Part shown: positions 33,686-44,357 of the stretch, piece after piece
How positions within the stretch are numbered: position 1 is the stretch's first letter
How the letters are laid out: the number at the start of each line of letters is the position of its first letter
Assembly (NCBI GenBank): GCA_937928005.1
Contig: CALFVD010000013.1
Coordinates: forward strand, 45,665-109,664
From: an uncultured Neomegalonema sp.
Lineage (GTDB): Bacteria; Pseudomonadota; Alphaproteobacteria; Rhodobacterales; Rhodobacteraceae
Reading direction: 5' to 3'
Length of the DNA: 64,000 nt
The notes under the pieces: model-generated
Databases searched by the model: none
Seen by the model: the letters and a program-made list of their open reading frames with translations, nothing else
What the model was told of the DNA's origin: nothing
Program-made: the position numbers and the translations under genes

Positions 33686-35188
33686 TCAACAATTCAGCGT
33701 TTCACGCCAATTACTTACTAATCGCTTTGCGAGCATGTTTGAAACTGCGGGATTTGAGCTTTCGCGATTCAGGATGAAAAATGCGATCTGGTCTGTATTT
33801 CCTTCGATTAGATGCAGCATAATCAGATGATGGCCGAGGGTTAGTGTTGTCTCTTGCAGTGTTTCATCGCCAAGCAATCGCATCATCCGAATATCGGTGT
33901 CAATAACAGCCGAGAATATCTCGATGCATTCTTCGGCTTTAATTGTGTCTTCGGCAAAGCATGTGATCAGTTCTTTTGTACTGGCATTCATTACACCCGC
34001 CGTTTTAAGGCCGGTCATCTCCGCTATCGAACGCTTCAGCGTTTCGGCGGGGGTTTCCGGTACGGGCTCGGGGGTAATCGGCGCTGGTTCGGGTTCAGGT
34101 TCGACATATCGCGTTGTCACTTCCTCGATCGGCGCTTCTGGTGCCGAATCCGGGGCAGGCATAGCAACGCGATCAACGATTGGCGCAGCGGCGTCATCAA
34201 CATTGCCTCGGCGTCCAAAAGATTTGGGCACAGTTCTATTTTTAAAGAATGTTGACTCGATCAACGGCGCTTGCGTTTTCGCCTCTTCCTGAGCCGCAAT
34301 TTCATTCAAGGTTGCATCCATTTCCGATTCGCGCTTTGGCATCATCGGTGCAGGCGAAACTATCGCATCGGCGGGTAAGCCTTCACCGATTTGGTCGCCC
34401 CCGCGTCGGCCAAATTTGGGATCATCGAACGCCGATAGAAGGTCATCATCGGCAAAGCTCAGATCACCGAGCAAATCCTGCGCAATCTCGACCAGAGCCT
34501 GCCCGCCGGTCTCCGCCCATAGCTTATCGCTGGTCTGACAATCATTAAGCCGCTGTGTGGAGGCTTGCATGAAGACGATTTCGGTAAAGAAATCAGCGGC
34601 CTCACGCTGAAGGCGCGTTTCGATTTTGTCCAGATCCTCCGCCGAGCGCAATTTATCCGCGCGTGAGATCGCCAGAACGGAGCGTTTTGCGATGTCTTTG
34701 GGCAATGTCTGTATGATCGATTTCTCTGACAGCCGCCATGTCTGCGATGCGATTGTCACCCAGACGAGCAAGTTCGCCTCGCGCATGATGGCGCTATGTT
34801 TGGGGTCGATGCCATTCGTGGGATTGAAGGGCACCTCGATGATTTCGACGGCTTCGAGGCCCGGCATCGGCGTATGGATCACGATGTTTGCCACATCATC
34901 GCGCTCCACCACGTCCTCAAAGGAATCAAGCTCGTAGGATGCGCCATTGACCAGTTCAGCAACCAATACCGTCTTGGATGCATGGCGGATGCGCACGAGC
35001 GGGCGGCTGAAGAATCCCGGATCATTGGGCAGAAACGGGCGGCGCATGATGGCGTTCACGACGCTTGATTTGCCGACCTCGAATTCCCCACATACCACAA
35101 TCGTTTCTCGCTCGATTGCGTGCTTTGCCACCGTGCCGGAGGTCGTTTGAAGAGCCAAATTCATTGCCTGTATCCTCTCTTGGCTCAT
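33686..35188 (-). CDS. Dynamin-like/TRAFAC GTPase B
   Basis: P-loop GEFEVGKSSVVNAIM; ISRAD at the G4 position; G3 position reads EVPFNPTNG instead of DxPG; Pro/Glu-rich linker then helical C-terminus; 4-bp overlap with upstream gene. Confidence 0.75.
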   Translation of the reverse strand: MSQERIQAMNLALQTTSGTVAKHAIERETIVVCGEFEVGKSSVVNAIMRRPFLPNDPGFFSRPLVRIRHASKTVLVAELVNGASYELDSFEDVVERDDVANIVIHTPMPGLEAVEIIEVPFNPTNGIDPKHSAIMREANLLVWVTIASQTWRLSEKSIIQTLPKDIAKRSVLAISRADKLRSAEDLDKIETRLQREAADFFTEIVFMQASTQRLNDCQTSDKLWAETGGQALVEIAQDLLGDLSFADDDLLSAFDDPKFGRRGGDQIGEGLPADAIVSPAPMMPKRESEMDATLNEIAAQEEAKTQAPLIESTFFKNRTVPKSFGRRGNVDDAAAPIVDRVAMPAPDSAPEAPIEEVTTRYVEPEPEPAPITPEPVPETPAETLKRSIAEMTGLKTAGVMNASTKELITCFAEDTIKAEECIEIFSAVIDTDIRMMRLLGDETLQETTLTLGHHLIMLHLIEGNTDQIAFFILNRESSNPAVSNMLAKRLVSNWRETLNC

Positions 35189-37296
35189 GCCGCCGCTTTC
35201 ATCGCTTCCGATAGGAGATAATTCTCTTTGGCGGCGATGATCCGAAGACGGTGATCAATCACTTCGATGTCGCTTTGCAGGCGGTTCAGCATCTTCTCCC
35301 GATGCGCATCGCTGGCATTGTCACTCAGCGCCAGTTGATCGGCGCGCGACTGCTCATGGCGGTTATCAAGGGATTGCTCGACGATCTTTTTGATCAGGCT
35401 AAGTCGTTGTTTCCCGGACAAAACGCGATTGGTCATCGTTTCGGTATATGCTTCGATCATTTTTGTTGTTGCGGGATACACCTCGGCGGCAATGACTTTT
35501 TTCAGTGCTTCGATGGTTTTGGACATGTCGACATTCGTGTTCTTCTTCCAAAACGACCAATTGCGTTTTGAGACGAAATTCAGCGACAGCATCTTGCGTG
35601 ATGTTGTGAAGGTCACGGCTACGGTTTCTCCGGGCAGCAAATCCATCGAAATCCGAGACTCTAGACCCTCGGTGATCTGTTTTCCGGTTTGCAACGCGCG
35701 ATTCAGGCCATTCTGAAGAATATCATCGATACGATTGCGCACGGCTTCATATTGAACCGCTACACAATCCTCCATCGCGACGCGCAGGGGGAGGAGTTCA
35801 ATGCTCAAGTCTTCATCGATATCGGCATTGCCATTGAAAATCTCTTCGATCTTGGCGCTTTGATCCCGGATGAATTTTCCTGTTTCCACATCCATCTCTT
35901 GCTGGATCGCAACCCATGCATCGTTGATGATCGCATCAAGCTTATCATCCACATTGGAGAGTAGTTTTTCGAGGGCATTATCGACTTCACTGGCAATCAG
36001 TAGGTCGTCCTCGATGGTTTCCTTGTATTCCGAGATTCGGCCCGCGCCATAGCTTTCGATTTGATCCATGAGTTGATACCGCTTCCGTTGTGAAACGGCT
36101 TTGACGGCGGAGATTTGCGTGATGGCTTCAATTTTGGCGCGGTCGATAAAGCGCGCCCCGGATCCATTCGTAATTGCCATGGAGATCGCGTTCTTGACCT
36201 CTTCCAAACCAGAGGCGGCATAGAGTTTTTCGCGCGCGGTCTGGCCCGATGATGTGCGGTGCTCGCTCAGGAATATCTCAAAATTTGGATCATCAAGAAC
36301 TTCGGCGATATCCGCGTCCTTGGCATCTTCATTGATGGCCAATTCGGCCCAGCGCGCACTACCAAAGATAATCGAAAACTGCCCTTCGGGGATGGCATTC
36401 GTCAGGCGGTTTGTGATGTCCCGGACGACCCGCGCGATTCGCTTTGGATAGTTTTCAAGCTCATCAATGCGATTGATGTAGATGATGATATCCTTGTCGC
36501 CCTGCATGGCCACCATGCGGATCAACGCGATATCCACCTCGGTCAATGCCTGATGCGCCGATAGGGTCATCAAAAAGATGTCTGACTGATCCAAACTCTG
36601 ACAGGTAAATTCGTCCCGCACGAGGAACGGATCATTCACGCCGGGGGTGTCCGTGATGATCGTCGGGACGGCATAATCATCCGACCGCATAAACAGGTTC
36701 GCGGCTCGGGTGATGGATGCATAGCGCCCTAATGATTCGCGCTCAAGGCCCGCATCTGCGCCCGGTCCAGCACAGACATACCGTTGCAACAGATCGGCGG
36801 ACAGCATGTCGTATTCGTGTTTGGAGCCGAGCAGCGCATGGTAATAGCGGCCAAGGCGTCTCTCCGCATCGCGCCGCATTCCTTCGGTTTGTTCACGCAG
36901 CACTTCTGAGTCAAAGCCGGGCAGATTCTCTTCTGCCGCATCGCGCAAGCGCGTATCGCCATTGATGATACGGTCCCAATCTTCCTCGTTGAAAAAGTCG
37001 AAACGAGCGCCGCATTCCGGGTCTTCGGGAATGTTGATCCTCATGCTCGTGACAACGGAAGTCCACGGGTTCACATCCGATGGCAGGAACCCGATATTGC
37101 CGATCAAAGCATTGAGCGTCGATGATTTACCCGCTTTGACCTGACCGATGGCCGCAATCCGCGCCTTCCAGTCATTGAGGTCTTCGAGTTGCTTCTCGAA
37201 TGCCCCGACGAATTCGCCCGTTGATACCTCGACAAGATCGCCAAGCACTTTGCGAAGTCCATGGAGTTGAGCGTGATGTGATTGACCAATTCGCAT
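35185..37296 (-). CDS. Dynamin-like GTPase A
   Basis: P-loop GQVKAGKSSTLNALIG, switch II ITDTPGVNDPF, G4 INRIDELE; long helical C-terminus with NWSFWKK segment. Confidence 0.88.
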   Translation of the reverse strand: MRIGQSHHAQLHGLRKVLGDLVEVSTGEFVGAFEKQLEDLNDWKARIAAIGQVKAGKSSTLNALIGNIGFLPSDVNPWTSVVTSMRINIPEDPECGARFDFFNEEDWDRIINGDTRLRDAAEENLPGFDSEVLREQTEGMRRDAERRLGRYYHALLGSKHEYDMLSADLLQRYVCAGPGADAGLERESLGRYASITRAANLFMRSDDYAVPTIITDTPGVNDPFLVRDEFTCQSLDQSDIFLMTLSAHQALTEVDIALIRMVAMQGDKDIIIYINRIDELENYPKRIARVVRDITNRLTNAIPEGQFSIIFGSARWAELAINEDAKDADIAEVLDDPNFEIFLSEHRTSSGQTAREKLYAASGLEEVKNAISMAITNGSGARFIDRAKIEAITQISAVKAVSQRKRYQLMDQIESYGAGRISEYKETIEDDLLIASEVDNALEKLLSNVDDKLDAIINDAWVAIQQEMDVETGKFIRDQSAKIEEIFNGNADIDEDLSIELLPLRVAMEDCVAVQYEAVRNRIDDILQNGLNRALQTGKQITEGLESRISMDLLPGETVAVTFTTSRKMLSLNFVSKRNWSFWKKNTNVDMSKTIEALKKVIAAEVYPATTKMIEAYTETMTNRVLSGKQRLSLIKKIVEQSLDNRHEQSRADQLALSDNASDAHREKMLNRLQSDIEVIDHRLRIIAAKENYLLSEAMKAAA

Positions 37297-37403
37297 ATCG
37301 ACCGTTCTTCGTTTAAGGGACGCGGGTGGTGGGCTACCAATGTGGAAAGAGTATATTTTAACTGCTCAAGAAATCGTTCAGAGCCGTCGAGAGATTGCTT
37401 GGT

Positions 37404-38312
37404 TCAGCGCATTATCGCCTCACAAATCTGGACAATTTTCTTGGCCGTAGGTCGTTCTTCACGGCGCGGGCACAGGGCTTTCGATATGCTCGACAGGAAA
37501 AGCGCGGGGAAGCGGTCTGCATTTCGCAGCAATGGCTCGTTCTCTTCCGCTTGGTTCAACCGCTTGTTGGCGGGTTCCGGTGCGGTGCCTGAAACCATAT
37601 GATACAAGGTTGCGCCGAATGAATAGATATCACATTCATCCGTCGGATGAAGACGGCGGTTATAGAGTTCCGGTGCCGAATATCCGTCTTTAACGGCGCG
37701 TAGCCTGTTCGGTGGACGCCGGGTCGCTTCGCTTCCATCATTGAACAATGATGAACCAAAATCGATCAGCACAGGATCGACCGCCCCCCGCATGATGATG
37801 TTATCCGGCGCGATATCGCCATGGACCACCCCATTCGAGTGCAGGTAGGCAAGGGCGCTGGCGATACGTGATGCGATCTGAACGATTTGCCCCGGCTCCA
37901 GCCATTCCGGGTTATGCGCCATGATATCCTGCAAATCCGCGCCTTCGATGTATTCGAGAACGATGTACCCCGTTTCATTTTCCTCAAAGAAATCCAGCAC
38001 GCGCATAAGATTCGGGTGGCTCATTAGACCCGGCCACCATCCTTCTTCATTGAATAAAATGCGGAGTTCTCTGATTTCATTGTGAAATTCTGAAGGGCAC
38101 TGAACTGACAAATCCGTGCCGCGTCGTGAAAAGCCCTCTACGAAAAACTCCTTAATCGCATAGGTCTTCCCCGCCGCATTGTACGCTTTGTACACGATCC
38201 CAAAGCCGCCATTGCTAAGCGCCGACTCGATAATGAACGTACCGCCGCGCAATATTGTGCCGCCGCGCAGATCGTCATTCAGTTCGAGCAGGCTTTCTGC
38301 GGTGGCGCCCAA
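37404..38312 (-). CDS. Soluble eukaryotic-type Ser/Thr protein kinase
   Basis: LSNGGFGIVYKA, YAIKEF, HGDIAPDNI, DFGSSLF, GYSAPE, DIYSFGATLYHMVSG; no TM segment. Confidence 0.93.
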   Translation of the reverse strand: MGATAESLLELNDDLRGGTILRGGTFIIESALSNGGFGIVYKAYNAAGKTYAIKEFFVEGFSRRGTDLSVQCPSEFHNEIRELRILFNEEGWWPGLMSHPNLMRVLDFFEENETGYIVLEYIEGADLQDIMAHNPEWLEPGQIVQIASRIASALAYLHSNGVVHGDIAPDNIIMRGAVDPVLIDFGSSLFNDGSEATRRPPNRLRAVKDGYSAPELYNRRLHPTDECDIYSFGATLYHMVSGTAPEPANKRLNQAEENEPLLRNADRFPALFLSSISKALCPRREERPTAKKIVQICEAIMR

Positions 38313-38351
38313 AGTTTATCTCCTCACGTCGCGTAATCGACGGTGGTTGGG

Positions 38352-39128
38352 TCAGAGTCGCTCGCGTAGCGCACTGAGCCGCAATTCCAGTTCATCGAAT
38401 TGATCCGGGTATTCAGACATAACCAAACACCCTTCTCCGCCGAGCCAGGCCATTGCCGCCCCCCGGCAATCCCCGCCATCAACAACGATGAAGCGCAGAT
38501 CGGTGTCTTTACCGTTCAATTCCTCGCGCAGCGCGGCGACGCATCCATCGATCCATGCCGGGTCAATATTGGATGTTGCGGGGATATCGATTTCATCGGC
38601 GCTACCAAAACGCGCGCGCGGGTGGTCGGGAAACGTATCGTAGAATCCCTGAATCACCGCCGCATCCCCCTCATCATTCTGAGAGAGGGAGACATGATCG
38701 CAGAGCATCGATGCAGGATACCCCGAATGGGTAATGGTGCCGAGCGCATGGGGCAGGAATGTCTGTTCGATTATAATCCGCTTATCGGCAACGATCTTGA
38801 GCAACACCGAGGTAAAGGCCCGCGCAAATGAATCGTAATCCCCCTCGCAGACCGTCGCTTGCGGGGATTGCTGCCCTTCCCACAGGTTTTGTGGGTGGAC
38901 ATCGGCGACCTTGATGACGCGGCGGTTACGCGCAATCACCGACAGGCGCACACCATCCTCCGAGCGGATCGTGATCCGCCGTGGTAGGACCGTGTTGACG
39001 AGGGTGGCCTCCAGTTCGGCACAGGCGGTTTCCGTATCCATCTCTCTAAAGCCGGACGGACCACCATCACCATCGATAAGCGCGGTGATACTGTCGAAGG
39101 AGGCATGAAGTTTAGCGGAACTTGGCAC
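38352..39128 (-). CDS. Hypothetical protein (cassette component, family not recognised)
   Basis: 258-aa ORF in tight co-directional arrangement (3-bp gap to upstream ORF, 39 bp to kinase). Confidence 0.65.
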   Translation of the reverse strand: MPSSAKLHASFDSITALIDGDGGPSGFREMDTETACAELEATLVNTVLPRRITIRSEDGVRLSVIARNRRVIKVADVHPQNLWEGQQSPQATVCEGDYDSFARAFTSVLLKIVADKRIIIEQTFLPHALGTITHSGYPASMLCDHVSLSQNDEGDAAVIQGFYDTFPDHPRARFGSADEIDIPATSNIDPAWIDGCVAALREELNGKDTDLRFIVVDGGDCRGAAMAWLGGEGCLVMSEYPDQFDELELRLSALRERL

Positions 39129-39131
39129 GAT

Positions 39132-39530
39132 CTACGCCGCCTCCATCGTCATGGGAAGTTGAAAGATTTCCGAAGCGATTTCCATGAGATAGCTCCGGCT
39201 TGGGGATTTGCTGAATAGGCAAACCAAGGCATCATCCCCCTTGCGTAGGTCTTGAATGACGACCAGCACATCTCTTTTACGGACCCGCGTAATCGACACG
39301 AGTTGCGGTTCATTGGCGGATGCGCGAAAGGCCATTGCCGACGGGGATTTCAACGCCTCAATGGCATCCGCACCGACCTGCTGTACGATTGATTGCGACG
39401 TGGGCGACGCAGAGCTTTTCGAGAAGACAAGACCGGTCTCTTGATCGATTAGCATTGCAAGTTTGCAATCCTTGAATCGCTCATGCAAAGCATCGATCAT
39501 ATCGAGCGTCTTTTGCCTAAGATCATCCAT
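39132..39530 (-). CDS. Roadblock/LC7-like protein
   Basis: CKLAMLIDQETGLVFSKSS..LVSITRVRKRDVLVVIQDLRKGDDALVCLFSKSPSRSYLMEIASEIF; beta-strand/DxxTGL pattern parallels the 42825-43181 protein. Confidence 0.5.
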   Translation of the reverse strand: MDDLRQKTLDMIDALHERFKDCKLAMLIDQETGLVFSKSSASPTSQSIVQQVGADAIEALKSPSAMAFRASANEPQLVSITRVRKRDVLVVIQDLRKGDDALVCLFSKSPSRSYLMEIASEIFQLPMTMEAA

Positions 39531-39656
39531 CGTATTGACCGCCTCAATTGCCTTATGATTCAGTAATTTTACAGTAACTTGAATAAAAAACTAATTAATA
39601 ACTTTGCCTCTGCATTGGAAATCAATCTGTGCATTGAATTACCCATGTTCTGATAT

Positions 39657-41054
39657 TTAAGCGACACTCACCTGAGTATTAGTTGGTTCGTCCTCGATGA
39701 TATCATTGAGCTCCAGCGTTTCCTCGTCTTCAATGGGCAGGCGCCGCCAAAAATCGATGGTCATTTGTTTTACGATATCGGCGGCGTCTTGTGCTGATCG
39801 CTCATCGGATTCATAGCCCAGCAATCCAATCAGTTCTTCTGCTTCCCTGATTTGGATGGCAACTTGATGATGTTCCGATGTAAGTTTTAACCCGGATTTC
39901 ATATAATTGTTTAGGGTGTTGAGAGATTTCAACATCTCTTCAAACAGTGGCGCATATCCCTCTACGCCCACATGATCAATTACGTCTTTACAGGCTTGTA
40001 TATGGCTCAAGAGTGTCGTTTTTACTTCGCTCACACTTGGTGCATGGATGAAGCGATCCGAGCCGCCCTCTTGTTCCGGTGCAGGGCCGCCGCCGTCTTC
40101 ATACGCACCCTCATCTTCACCATCGTCATCTAATAACAGACGCTCGAATTCTGAGGCAGATGCGCGGATATCGGCGGTTTGTTTACGTTTGGCTTCCGTT
40201 TCCTGAATCGTATCAAGTTCACCGAGAAGATATTGAGCCTGCGCAATCAGGGATGCTTCATGTTCCGATGTCTTTGCGATCAGCGTTTTCAACAGGGTGC
40301 CGCCGCCACTCGCCGCAAAGCCATCAACGTCGATCACTGATCCGTCCGGGGCCGACAGGCGCGCGGTATCCACGGAAATACTGACCATCGCATCGAAATA
40401 CTCGCAGGCTGTGGCGCATTTTTCTTCAAAGATCTGATTTTCTTGGTCAGTGATAACGAAATCTGCGCCCGTTAGGATCAGAATGCTTCGCTCTTTCTGA
40501 CGTTCAGGTATGCTCTTCCAAAGGCGCAATTCATCGGCGCTCCATGGCGTTTTTGCATTTGAACACCAAGCCACGATATCGGCGCTTCGTATCATCTGAA
40601 ACAGTTGATGCGTCCGGCGTTCTTCACCATCGTAACTTGGATAGATCAGGAACCCGATTTCCATCAGGATTGGGCGCGGCAATTCGAGGTCGATCAAGGT
40701 GGCATCCGCATATGCCGCCGCAATATCGCATCCCTCATATTCTGTCCGGGACGAGCCGGAAACAGCCAAAGTCCGCGCCTCTCGGCCATAGCGTACCCGT
40801 ATCGGCGGGCATGTATCTATATCATGGGGCGCGGCGAATAGGTCGGTTCCGAGTAGGAATTCCGCCAGCATCCCATGCTCAGACCCTTTTGGTCCGGCAA
40901 TGACTACCCGTATTGGCGCGGATAATTGGTCGATGGTCGTGGATAGCAGCGCCCGGTGCTCTGACTTCACCAAAGATGCATCATCGCCAAAAGTATCGCG
41001 AACGGCTTGTAAGCGACTGAGCAGGGATGTCTTTTCATTTTCGAGCGGCATCAC
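39657..41054 (-). CDS. Dynamin-like pseudo-GTPase (degenerate P-loop)
   Basis: IRVVIAGPKGSEHGMLAEFLLGTDLFAA..DTCPPIRVRYG aligns in position with the P-loop region of GTPase B but lacks GK[ST]; ILILTGADFV at the G4 position. Confidence 0.6.
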   Translation of the reverse strand: MMPLENEKTSLLSRLQAVRDTFGDDASLVKSEHRALLSTTIDQLSAPIRVVIAGPKGSEHGMLAEFLLGTDLFAAPHDIDTCPPIRVRYGREARTLAVSGSSRTEYEGCDIAAAYADATLIDLELPRPILMEIGFLIYPSYDGEERRTHQLFQMIRSADIVAWCSNAKTPWSADELRLWKSIPERQKERSILILTGADFVITDQENQIFEEKCATACEYFDAMVSISVDTARLSAPDGSVIDVDGFAASGGGTLLKTLIAKTSEHEASLIAQAQYLLGELDTIQETEAKRKQTADIRASASEFERLLLDDDGEDEGAYEDGGGPAPEQEGGSDRFIHAPSVSEVKTTLLSHIQACKDVIDHVGVEGYAPLFEEMLKSLNTLNNYMKSGLKLTSEHHQVAIQIREAEELIGLLGYESDERSAQDAADIVKQMTIDFWRRLPIEDEETLELNDIIEDEPTNTQVSVA

Positions 41055-41824
41055 GCTAGAACCTTCACTATGGACATCGAAACATTGTCCTGCTCATCGT
41101 GGGCGAGGTGATCGATTGCTGATTTAAACTGGTGAGCGATGATCTGACTGGGGGCATCAATGAAACCGTTGATGATCTCGATGATTTCTTGCTGCGATAG
41201 GTATTCCAGACCATCGCTGGCCACGATCAACACATCGCCGGGCAGCAGCGTCAAACCGTCTTCCGTACAATCGAGCTTGTTAATGCGCTGGCCAGTTAAC
41301 GCAGAGGTCAGCACGCTACGATCTGGGTGATCTTCGGCTTCGCAAGGCGACAGCTTTCCTTGCATGACCATCGCATCAATCTCTGCCGCCATCGAATGAT
41401 CGGCATTGAGACGAAAAATCTTCTGGTCCCGATAGAGCAGTAGCAGCGAATCGCCCACCGATGCCCAGTAGAGATGTTGGTCAAAATTCACCGCGCCGAT
41501 GACGGTCGCGCCCATGCCCTGATATTCTGGCATTTCGCTGATATGCGTACCAATGGCCGCATTGGCCTTTTCGACGGCGCGTTTCAGGACGCTATAGGTG
41601 CGTCCCTTGAATTCTGGTAGGTTGCATGTGCTTTCGAGTAAGGTTTCCTGCACCGCGCTAACGCAAATCTTGCTGGCGATATCGCCGCCCGCATGGCCGC
41701 CCATCCCATCGGACAGAATCGTAAAGCCGAATTCCGCACCGACCGGATAGCATGAGACAACCGCATCTTCTTGATAAGTGCGCTGTCCCTGCATCAATAA
41801 TGTGGCGGAATCGAAATGCGGCAT
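41051..41824 (-). CDS. PP2C-type Ser/Thr protein phosphatase
   Basis: RTYQEDAVV, ILSDGMGGHAGGDIAS, YQGMGATVIG, ASVGDSLLLLYR, IVASDGLEYLS, DEQDNVSMSIV. Confidence 0.93.
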   Translation of the reverse strand: MPHFDSATLLMQGQRTYQEDAVVSCYPVGAEFGFTILSDGMGGHAGGDIASKICVSAVQETLLESTCNLPEFKGRTYSVLKRAVEKANAAIGTHISEMPEYQGMGATVIGAVNFDQHLYWASVGDSLLLLYRDQKIFRLNADHSMAAEIDAMVMQGKLSPCEAEDHPDRSVLTSALTGQRINKLDCTEDGLTLLPGDVLIVASDGLEYLSQQEIIEIINGFIDAPSQIIAHQFKSAIDHLAHDEQDNVSMSIVKVLA

Positions 41825-41831
41825 CGACGGA

Positions 41832-42704
41832 TTATCCCGCAAACAGAACATCGTCGTCCTGTGTTCCATCGGTCCAATTGAATGTCTCATCGCACAGGAT
41901 GGTCAGTCGCAGGCTCGTCTCGCCCATGCTGATAATATCGCCATCACTCAATTGTTCTGTCGTCAGCAGCGGCTTGCTATTCAGGCGCACGATATTCGCC
42001 TTACCACCATGGCCGACATAGAACAGATGGCTGTCAGGATCATAAGCGATTGAGGCATGATTAGAGCGCGAGATGCTCAGATCACCGAAATCGAGGGCAA
42101 CCGTTTCTTCGGCATCACGCCCAATCTGCGACACGCCAGAGCGCAGCGCAAAGCATGTTCCGCGCCCTGGACCTTTGGTAACAACCAGCCAACCAACGGG
42201 GAAAGTCACCCGCGCAGATGGCATAGCAGGGGCCGTGTTTTCCATCACGCGGTGCTGAGCATCGGCATCATCATTCGCGTTCAGCAGCCGGGTCTTCACC
42301 CGACCGGCGCTCTTGCGCGAAGGCATGGGCACGGGTTTTACGGGCTGAGGATTATCCAGCTCATCGGCGGTTCGCCACATTGATGCGGCACCGGGTGCCA
42401 CAGGTTTCGGCTCACTCGCCGCATCGTCCAAAAAGGCGGCGATTGCGGCATCTTCATCATCGTCCAATTCGGCCACAAGGCTTTCGAGCGATGGATCAAG
42501 ACTGCGCCGAGCAGAGGCGGCCTGTGGACGTTTTGGTATGGGCAGTGCGCGCCGCCGTTCCGGCTGTGCCGGAGCCGCCGGAACATCAATAGCGGCCTTA
42601 AGGTCGCGGTGACGCGCGGAAGGATCAAGGCTACGTGTTACCGGTGGATTCTCATCCTCCCGAGAAGTTTTTACAATTTCTGCGAGATTCGAGAATAATT
42701 TCAT
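41832..42704 (-). CDS. FHA domain protein
   Basis: C-terminal FHA: GRGTCFALRSGVSQIGRDAEETVALDFGDLSISRSNHASIAYD..VRLNSKPLLTTEQLSDGDIISMGETSLRL. Confidence 0.9.
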   Translation of the reverse strand: MKLFSNLAEIVKTSREDENPPVTRSLDPSARHRDLKAAIDVPAAPAQPERRRALPIPKRPQAASARRSLDPSLESLVAELDDDEDAAIAAFLDDAASEPKPVAPGAASMWRTADELDNPQPVKPVPMPSRKSAGRVKTRLLNANDDADAQHRVMENTAPAMPSARVTFPVGWLVVTKGPGRGTCFALRSGVSQIGRDAEETVALDFGDLSISRSNHASIAYDPDSHLFYVGHGGKANIVRLNSKPLLTTEQLSDGDIISMGETSLRLTILCDETFNWTDGTQDDDVLFAG

Positions 42705-42824
42705 CGCTCGATATCCTTGGTCGATAATGCTTCAGAAGTCGGGTTGTCTGCGGGCGATGTGAAGGCAGGCTGATGCCGTTCCCACACCGCCCCGGAGCTT
42801 TATGCCCAATCCATCGTGAGTGGA

Positions 42825-43181
42825 TTAGACGCTGACAGAGCTTTCAACAGTCTTCACGGCGAGGCGTGCCATGCCGAGATTGGCCGATTTCTTTTCGAGA
42901 GCGACATACATGAAGATCGCAGGGTTGCTCGCGAGCGGACGGATCAGGTGATACTGCGTGCCCAGCGTGATCAGGATATCCTCGATGGCATCTTTGAGGT
43001 TCAGAGCGGCCATGGCGGCGTTCTTCGCACGAACGACTTCGGTGTTAGCAGCGCCAGCCGCTTCGAGGTCGAAACGCGCGCTACCGCCTTCGGAGGCGAG
43101 CATCAGGCCGGATTCACTGTCGACGAGGCAGGCGCCGATGAAGCCAGCAATATTGTTCAGTGCAGAAATGTCAGTAGACAT
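42825..43181 (-). CDS. Roadblock/LC7-domain-like protein
   Basis: GFIGACLVDSESGLMLASEGGSARFDLEAAGAANTEVVRAKNAAMAALNLKDAIEDILITLGTQYHLIRPL. Confidence 0.8.
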   Translation of the reverse strand: MSTDISALNNIAGFIGACLVDSESGLMLASEGGSARFDLEAAGAANTEVVRAKNAAMAALNLKDAIEDILITLGTQYHLIRPLASNPAIFMYVALEKKSANLGMARLAVKTVESSVSV

Positions 43182-43586: not shown

Positions 43587-44357
43587 ATGATGGACAGCGT
43601 TCTGGAGTACGAGATTGTCGAAAAAATCACTGCAAAAAATGCAACCACATTCCGCGCCAATATCGACGTACAATTACTCCAGCGCCTCTCACAGAGCTTC
43701 GATGCCGGTGCGGCGTCCTTCTGGTTTCGATTCTTCGGTGAGGTCAATTTTCATGCGCAACGATTCGACGGCCTGACCGATGTGACATTTCACATCGCGC
43801 TGACGGATGAAGCGCGGGAGCAACGATCACTTGCCGCCCCGGTCATCACCCGGTTGAGTAAGCGCGAGGCATGGGGTGATCATGTGCCACTGCTCGATTC
43901 CCCCAATGTCGATGCCATCTACATCACATCCGAGAATTTGAAGGCCGATGAGGTGCCCCGTATCCCGACCAAACCCGAAGCCGAACGATTGGCGGCAATC
44001 CGCGCCGCATTCGCTGATATGCTGGATGCGGATAATCTCGACGAGGGTATGCAGGCCGATCTGGCAACCCGGATCGTGTCGGACTTGCTGATCGGTGAAT
44101 TCGATTCCGATGCGCGCGGGGCGATGGCAACGGTCGTGGGTGTGTGGGTGGGGGATAGGGTGTCCGAGCTTACCGGACTAAAATGGCATTGCATTGATGA
44201 GGCGGAAACCGTCTCCTATTGCATCCATGATCCGGTCAGGAAAGTTTCGTGCTTCCCCTTCGATGCGATGAACAAGCGCCTGAATGCGCGCGAAGCATTT
44301 CAACCGCACCTGCTCGCCGAAACTTTTGCTAAGGCTTTGAAGTCGATGCCAAATTGA
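43587..44357 (+). CDS. Hypothetical protein with DUF3806-like C-terminus, divergent from cassette
   Basis: ARGAMATVVGVWVGDRVSELTGLKWHCIDEAETVSYCIHDPVRKVSCFPFDAMNKRL pattern. Confidence 0.55.
   Translation: MMDSVLEYEIVEKITAKNATTFRANIDVQLLQRLSQSFDAGAASFWFRFFGEVNFHAQRFDGLTDVTFHIALTDEAREQRSLAAPVITRLSKREAWGDHVPLLDSPNVDAIYITSENLKADEVPRIPTKPEAERLAAIRAAFADMLDADNLDEGMQADLATRIVSDLLIGEFDSDARGAMATVVGVWVGDRVSELTGLKWHCIDEAETVSYCIHDPVRKVSCFPFDAMNKRLNAREAFQPHLLAETFAKALKSMPN

Follow-up and report, generated by a model that had tools for sequence, protein, structure and literature searches.

Gene content of the cassette

The DNA examined here is a stretch of 64,000 nucleotides (hereafter the window) from the genome of an uncultured Neomegalonema sp. 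(contig CALFVD010000013.1, positions 45,665 to 109,664), in which nine open reading frames (ORFs), all co-directional on the minus strand, fill positions 33686-43181 and encode a kinase, a phosphatase and an FHA-domain protein together with dynamin-type GTPases and roadblock-type proteins. We find, from genome organisation and protein families, that these genes form one conserved, recurrent unit, and we lean towards reading it as a phospho-controlled dynamin operon. In order of transcription, with the basis of each assignment in brackets, the genes are:

42825..43181, minus strand: RB1, roadblock-type protein of 118 amino acids, first gene (profile)
41832..42704, minus strand: FHA-domain protein of 290 amino acids, with Thr138 (RVKTRLL) in its linker (Pfam FHA, 9.8e-6)
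41051..41890, minus strand: PP2C-type Ser/Thr phosphatase of 279 amino acids (Pfam PP2C, 7.6e-11)
39657..41054, minus strand: g6, degenerate dynamin-partner GTPase-fold protein of 465 amino acids, its P-loop lost (family profile and alignment)
39132..39530, minus strand: RB2, roadblock protein of 132 amino acids (profile and AlphaFold/Foldseek)
38352..39128, minus strand: O4, conserved 'orphan' of 258 amino acids (sequence cluster and model)
37404..38312, minus strand: Hanks-type Ser/Thr kinase of 302 amino acids (Pfam Pkinase, 8.2e-36)
35185..37296, minus strand: GTPase A, dynamin-like, 703 amino acids (Pfam Dynamin_N, 1.1e-11)
33686..35188, minus strand: GTPase B, dynamin partner of 500 amino acids (Pfam Dynamin_N, 3.8e-10)

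Genes were called by codon scoring, antisense ORFs being misleading for plain ORF picking, and codon usage scores all nine as coding. The sequence-only reading of this DNA had described nine co-directional, tightly packed genes that include those for kinase, PP2C and FHA protein; their number, direction and coding status stand, and the Pfam matches above bear out the three phospho-proteins. The packing is uneven, with gaps of about 107, 126 and 120 nucleotides before GTPase A, RB2 and the FHA gene, respectively, and the apparent overlap of the FHA and PP2C genes may be a start-codon artefact, the probable PP2C start being a later in-frame ATG (MPHFD...) located downstream of the FHA stop. The G+C content of the cassette is about 0.52-0.55, against mostly 0.56-0.63 around it, and a promoter and terminator scan of the cassette gave results no better than those of shuffled sequences.

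Conservation, gene order and distribution

Our survey covered 246 genomes of the order Rhodobacterales and the 20-kb neighbourhoods of nearly all GTPase A matches, plus four annotated plasmid regions. GTPase A homologues are present in 83 genomes and the FHA protein, sought separately with an FHA profile, in 79: the two occur together in 76 genomes, GTPase A alone in seven, the FHA protein alone in three and neither in 160. Of the 100 FHA places, 76 have GTPase A no more than 14 kb away. Among the 99 loci containing GTPase A, scored with family profiles built from the loci themselves, a roadblock gene is found in 94, O4 in 82, PP2C in 80, the FHA protein in 77 and the kinase in 76, and all but one locus (98/99) are fully co-directional. 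Kinase, FHA protein, PP2C and dynamin stand together in 70 loci from 27 genera, and the eight-gene order kinase-FHA-PP2C-g6-A-B-RB2-O4 recurs in 52 loci from 22 genera, one example being Leisingera aquaemixtae S166 (K3718_RS20745 to RS20710). The genes thus do travel together in the neighbourhoods of GTPase A homologues.

The exact gene order of the window is unique among the 99 loci. Elsewhere, four genera have RB1-A-B-A-B loci without phospho-genes, and other genera have A-B-RB1 loci; in the tree, the window's GTPase A lies beside the second-position A of the RB1-A-B-A-B loci with full support. Because of this grouping, the window is best described as a rearranged hybrid, in which RB1 and the A/B pair belong to the phospho-free type and the common type accounts for the phospho-module, g6, RB2 and O4. 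A second locus in the same genome (contig C144, L031 6201-14649) reads g6-A-B-RB2-O4-A-B, without kinase, FHA or PP2C genes, and may cooperate in trans with the locus of the window.

In a sample of 349 genomes of the phylum, GTPase A (E <= 1e-10) and O4 (E <= 0.001) were not found outside the family. The nearest annotated plasmid-borne matches are in Rhodobacter, Ruegeria and Leisingera. In the window itself, the genes flanking the cassette are, from our reading of the ORFs, an aspartate kinase/phosphotransferase-enzyme pair at one end and an arginyl-tRNA synthetase at the opposite end; a divergent plus-strand gene upstream of the cassette (43587-44357, 256 amino acids, weak DUF3806 similarity) was not seen within the conserved set.

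Kinase, phosphatase and FHA protein

The window kinase has the motifs VVHGDIAPDN, DFG and APE, and the phosphatase has DGMGG, SDG and DN; the latter matches the Stp1 family model at 6.8e-42, below that model's cut-off. Across the kinase family, 38 of 77 members have a predicted transmembrane (TM) segment, typically near residue 340-400 and followed by a C-terminal domain, and therefore can act as receptors.

The FHA protein matches the OdhI model at 5.5e-7, and its FHA-domain residues R196, S212, H216 and N237 are invariant among 29 aligned homologues. Its linker is poorly conserved save for one island, R-x-K-T-R-L-L-G-F, whose threonine (Thr138 in the window) is invariant in all 29. A loose form of this motif, situated 31-53 residues ahead of the FHA glycine-arginine, is found in 72 of 74 family members as opposed to 0.5% of shuffles. 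Since a kinase and a PP2C share the operon with the FHA protein, Thr138 is the obvious candidate, and a likely one, for its phospho-switch.

Relatives of the kinase/FHA/PP2C set also occur without GTPase A. Three such loci (L203, L204, L213) keep g6 and O4, and two others (L205, L209) stand beside OmpA and PBP_like_2 periplasmic-type proteins and a PilJ-domain protein; such loci read as an alternative-output version of the module, and the OmpA/PBP and PilJ-domain neighbours point to envelope cues. In one genus (g8), an extra FHA-PP2C-FHA gene set, with a PP2C of 511-914 amino acids, is present (L214-L217); in some genomes, some 32 kb separate it from the dynamin cassette.

Dynamin-type GTPases

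GTPase A has a complete set of G motifs (GQVKAGKS, DTPG, NRID), conserved among 122 homologues, and its gene adjoins that of GTPase B, a pairing that recurs in relatives. GTPase B of the window shows a Dynamin_N match and a P-loop only, its G3 and G4 having diverged, and in its family the P-loop is present in 85 of 85 members, DxPG in 19 and an NKxD-like motif in 12. Profiles place g6, which has no significant match in Pfam, in the same dynamin-partner family as GTPase B; the P-loop is intact in 77 of the 97 members of the g6 family and lost in 20, and the window's g6, being among the latter, is a predicted pseudo-GTPase. The set therefore reads as one putatively catalytic GTPase with progressively degenerate partners. 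Three dynamin-type GTPase-fold proteins had been proposed from the sequence, and all three do fall in dynamin or dynamin-partner families; the full motif set is confined to GTPase A.

Roadblock proteins and O4

Neither RB1 nor RB2 of the window has a roadblock match in Pfam, and profiles of RB1, RB2 and O4 found no meaningful match among PDB sequences. In profile-profile comparison (hhalign) with canonical roadblocks, RB2 reaches 94% (1.5e-7) and RB1 60% (8.9e-5), against <=0.4% for the O4 and g6 controls. The AlphaFold model of RB2 (pLDDT 91.7) has roadblock topology, with Roadblock3 and MglB as its best PDB matches in Foldseek (prob 1.00). RB1 is 59-77% identical to nine homologues, and Robl_LC7 is matched by two of the ten RB1 homologues (best 0.0016), below the Pfam cut-off. 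The predicted roadblock identity is thus confirmed for RB2, by profile and confident model, and is probable for RB1, by profile, in keeping with the two roadblock-like proteins first suspected here.

A protein of another genome of the phylum passes the Robl_LC7 cut-off and matches the profiles of both RB2 (3e-15) and RB1 (3.9e-8). This RB2-like roadblock (L184, 9209-10815) adjoins ORFs that read as an MglB-like protein and a fragment of an MglA-like small GTPase, and so appears to link Mgl systems with the RB2 family. RB1 occurs in relatives within dynamin-pair operons, but also alone: strongly conserved stand-alone copies (L179-L183) are distant from dynamins, two of them beside apparent two-component regulators, and RB1 may have a role that extends beyond the cassette. 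As for the 'orphan' O4, 62 proteins adjoining RB2 make up a single sequence cluster, so that O4 is a conserved family; comparison of its profile with roadblocks was negative, also when O4 was split into halves.

Proposed mechanism and alternative explanations

The kinase, the phosphatase and GTPase A have complete catalytic motifs, and the FHA protein has the residues predicted to bind phosphothreonine. On balance, we think a phospho-controlled dynamin operon with roadblocks, taken as a whole mechanism, the probable explanation of the cassette; rather more tentatively, it might represent an undescribed class of system, in which FHA-read reversible threonine phosphorylation would switch a heteromeric dynamin assembly, with roadblocks as regulator or platform. 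The kinase, often membrane-anchored in relatives, would phosphorylate the FHA protein at linker Thr138, and the phosphothreonine would engage an FHA domain, whether its own, in the manner of GarA/OdhI, or that of another molecule. Such engagement would change which partner the FHA hub holds, and PP2C would reset the switch. Under its control would stand the assembly of a hetero-oligomer of active GTPase A, the P-loop-bearing partner B and the pseudo-GTPase g6, for which the roadblocks, perhaps with O4, may provide a dimeric platform or regulate the GTPase. In response to an envelope cue, the inner membrane would then probably be tethered or remodelled in the manner of dynamins, a suggestion that follows from the dynamin family and from the behaviour of such pairs in Campylobacter (PMC6104087). 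Thus, of the phospho-switched dynamin-roadblock module put forward by the sequence-only reading, the conserved, non-T6SS (type VI secretion system) unit and the roadblock identity stand, and we infer from sequence and analogy that the kinase would act on the FHA protein and the dynamins, with the roadblocks as GTPase-activating protein or adaptor and membrane remodelling as the output.

Several observations weigh against this operon model. The hydropathy of GTPase A reveals no hydrophobic paddle or membrane-inserting segment that stands out beyond the G domain; the kinase of the window is a short protein that lacks a TM segment; and no small Ras-like GTPase, the partner of roadblocks in known bacterial systems, is among the nine genes. 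The O4 model (pLDDT 87), whose top folds, Mon1-Ccz1 and roadblocks, hint at a possible tandem longin/roadblock-like fold, has no match at E <= 0.001. Moreover, 18 loci keep dynamin pairs without phospho-genes, so that dynamins can function without the phospho-module.

It is conceivable, if somewhat unlikely, that the GTPases act instead as a signalling switch, a conservon- or Mgl-like polarity or regulatory device in which the kinase module and roadblocks would tune the nucleotide state so as to localise proteins or regulate genes. The roadblock assignments fit such a device, as does the failure to find a membrane-inserting segment in GTPase A, and conservons likewise join sensor kinase, roadblock and GTPase (PMC13343842); the GTPases of the cassette, however, are large, carry Dynamin_N and are encoded in tandem pairs, as are the bacterial dynamins that act on membranes (PMC6104087).

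A phage-defence or abortive system, whose kinase would sense infection and release a dynamin to damage the membrane or to reseal it, appears improbable to us. It would suit the patchy distribution (83/246 genomes), the low G+C of the cassette and the plasmid-borne copies, and PADLOC 2023 reports weak similarity to its Leo and mad kinase models. However, these weak matches reflect generic dynamin and kinase similarity, the other cassette genes being unmatched, and the neighbours of the annotated relatives' loci are metabolic or regulatory genes rather than defence islands.

We consider it very improbable that the cassette is left over from a T6SS, or controls one from a distance (threonine phosphorylation pathway), for which kinase, PP2C and FHA are the control set. 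VipB was found in 66 of 246 genomes, with a weak association (29 of 83 genomes with GTPase A and 37 of 163 others; p=0.048 in a Fisher test that ignores genome relatedness and is descriptive only). Against this, 54 of the 83 GTPase A-positive genomes lack a T6SS, VipB places are never near GTPase A places, and VipB is not in the available own genome (87% complete), so that a T6SS locus is rejected and the earlier statement that the cassette holds no T6SS structural gene is upheld. Finally, a chance neighbourhood without joint function, to which the unique order of the window might speak, is contradicted by 70 loci across 27 genera that each bring these gene families together and by the shared direction of the genes in 98 of 99 loci, and its probability is negligible.

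Comparison with known systems

Bacterial dynamins are usually encoded in pairs within an operon and work as hetero-oligomers, and the phospho-controlled dynamin operon proposed here resembles the DLP1/DLP2-type pairs of C. jejuni in its adjacently encoded, large Dynamin_N GTPases (PMC6104087); it differs in its additional kinase, PP2C, FHA, pseudo-GTPase and roadblock genes, and in the diverged G3 and G4 of partner B. With Mgl (MglA/MglB) and actinobacterial conservons it shares GTPase and roadblock and, in conservons, a kinase-like input (PMC13343842), but in place of a Ras-like small GTPase, histidine kinase and DUF742 the cassette has dynamins and a Hanks kinase. Some GAP1-N2 GTPase-centric conflict systems tie a GTPase to a kinase and PP2C; they differ in their GAP1 and vWA components and occur in other phyla, and neither dynamin nor roadblock is mentioned for them (PMC7159879). 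The PpkA/PppA/Fha pathway of the T6SS has a similar kinase, PP2C and FHA set, but no T6SS structural gene lies near the cassette and none, as judged by VipB, in the available own genome (87% complete). GarA and OdhI are likewise single FHA proteins in which an invariant threonine precedes the FHA domain. Their motif is N-terminal and of the ETTS type, unlike RxKTRLLGF, 31-53 residues ahead of the FHA fold, and the cassette shows no sign of metabolic-enzyme targets.

We found no description of the dynamin-roadblock-phospho combination in the open-access literature (subscription papers and bioRxiv being mostly outside this scope), nor is the set a named locus there or in annotated relatives. Each part is a known fold, and what is new, provisionally because of this coverage, is the system as a combination.

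Implications

The trigger is known for only a minority of bacterial dynamins. In the cassette, a likely controller (kinase, phosphatase and phospho-reader with a named threonine) is encoded in the same operon, and the switching-on of a bacterial dynamin can therefore be put to a direct test. No earlier case, so far as we have found, would have had roadblocks partnered with dynamins rather than with Ras-like GTPases. The gene set is present in roughly a third of the sampled genomes, and bacteria of the family occur in seawater and soil; conserved as an eight-gene unit in 22 genera, it should carry a selectable function in these ecologically important bacteria and, if the proposed mechanism is true, would be a bacterial counterpart of the kinase- and adaptor-controlled membrane traffic of eukaryotes.

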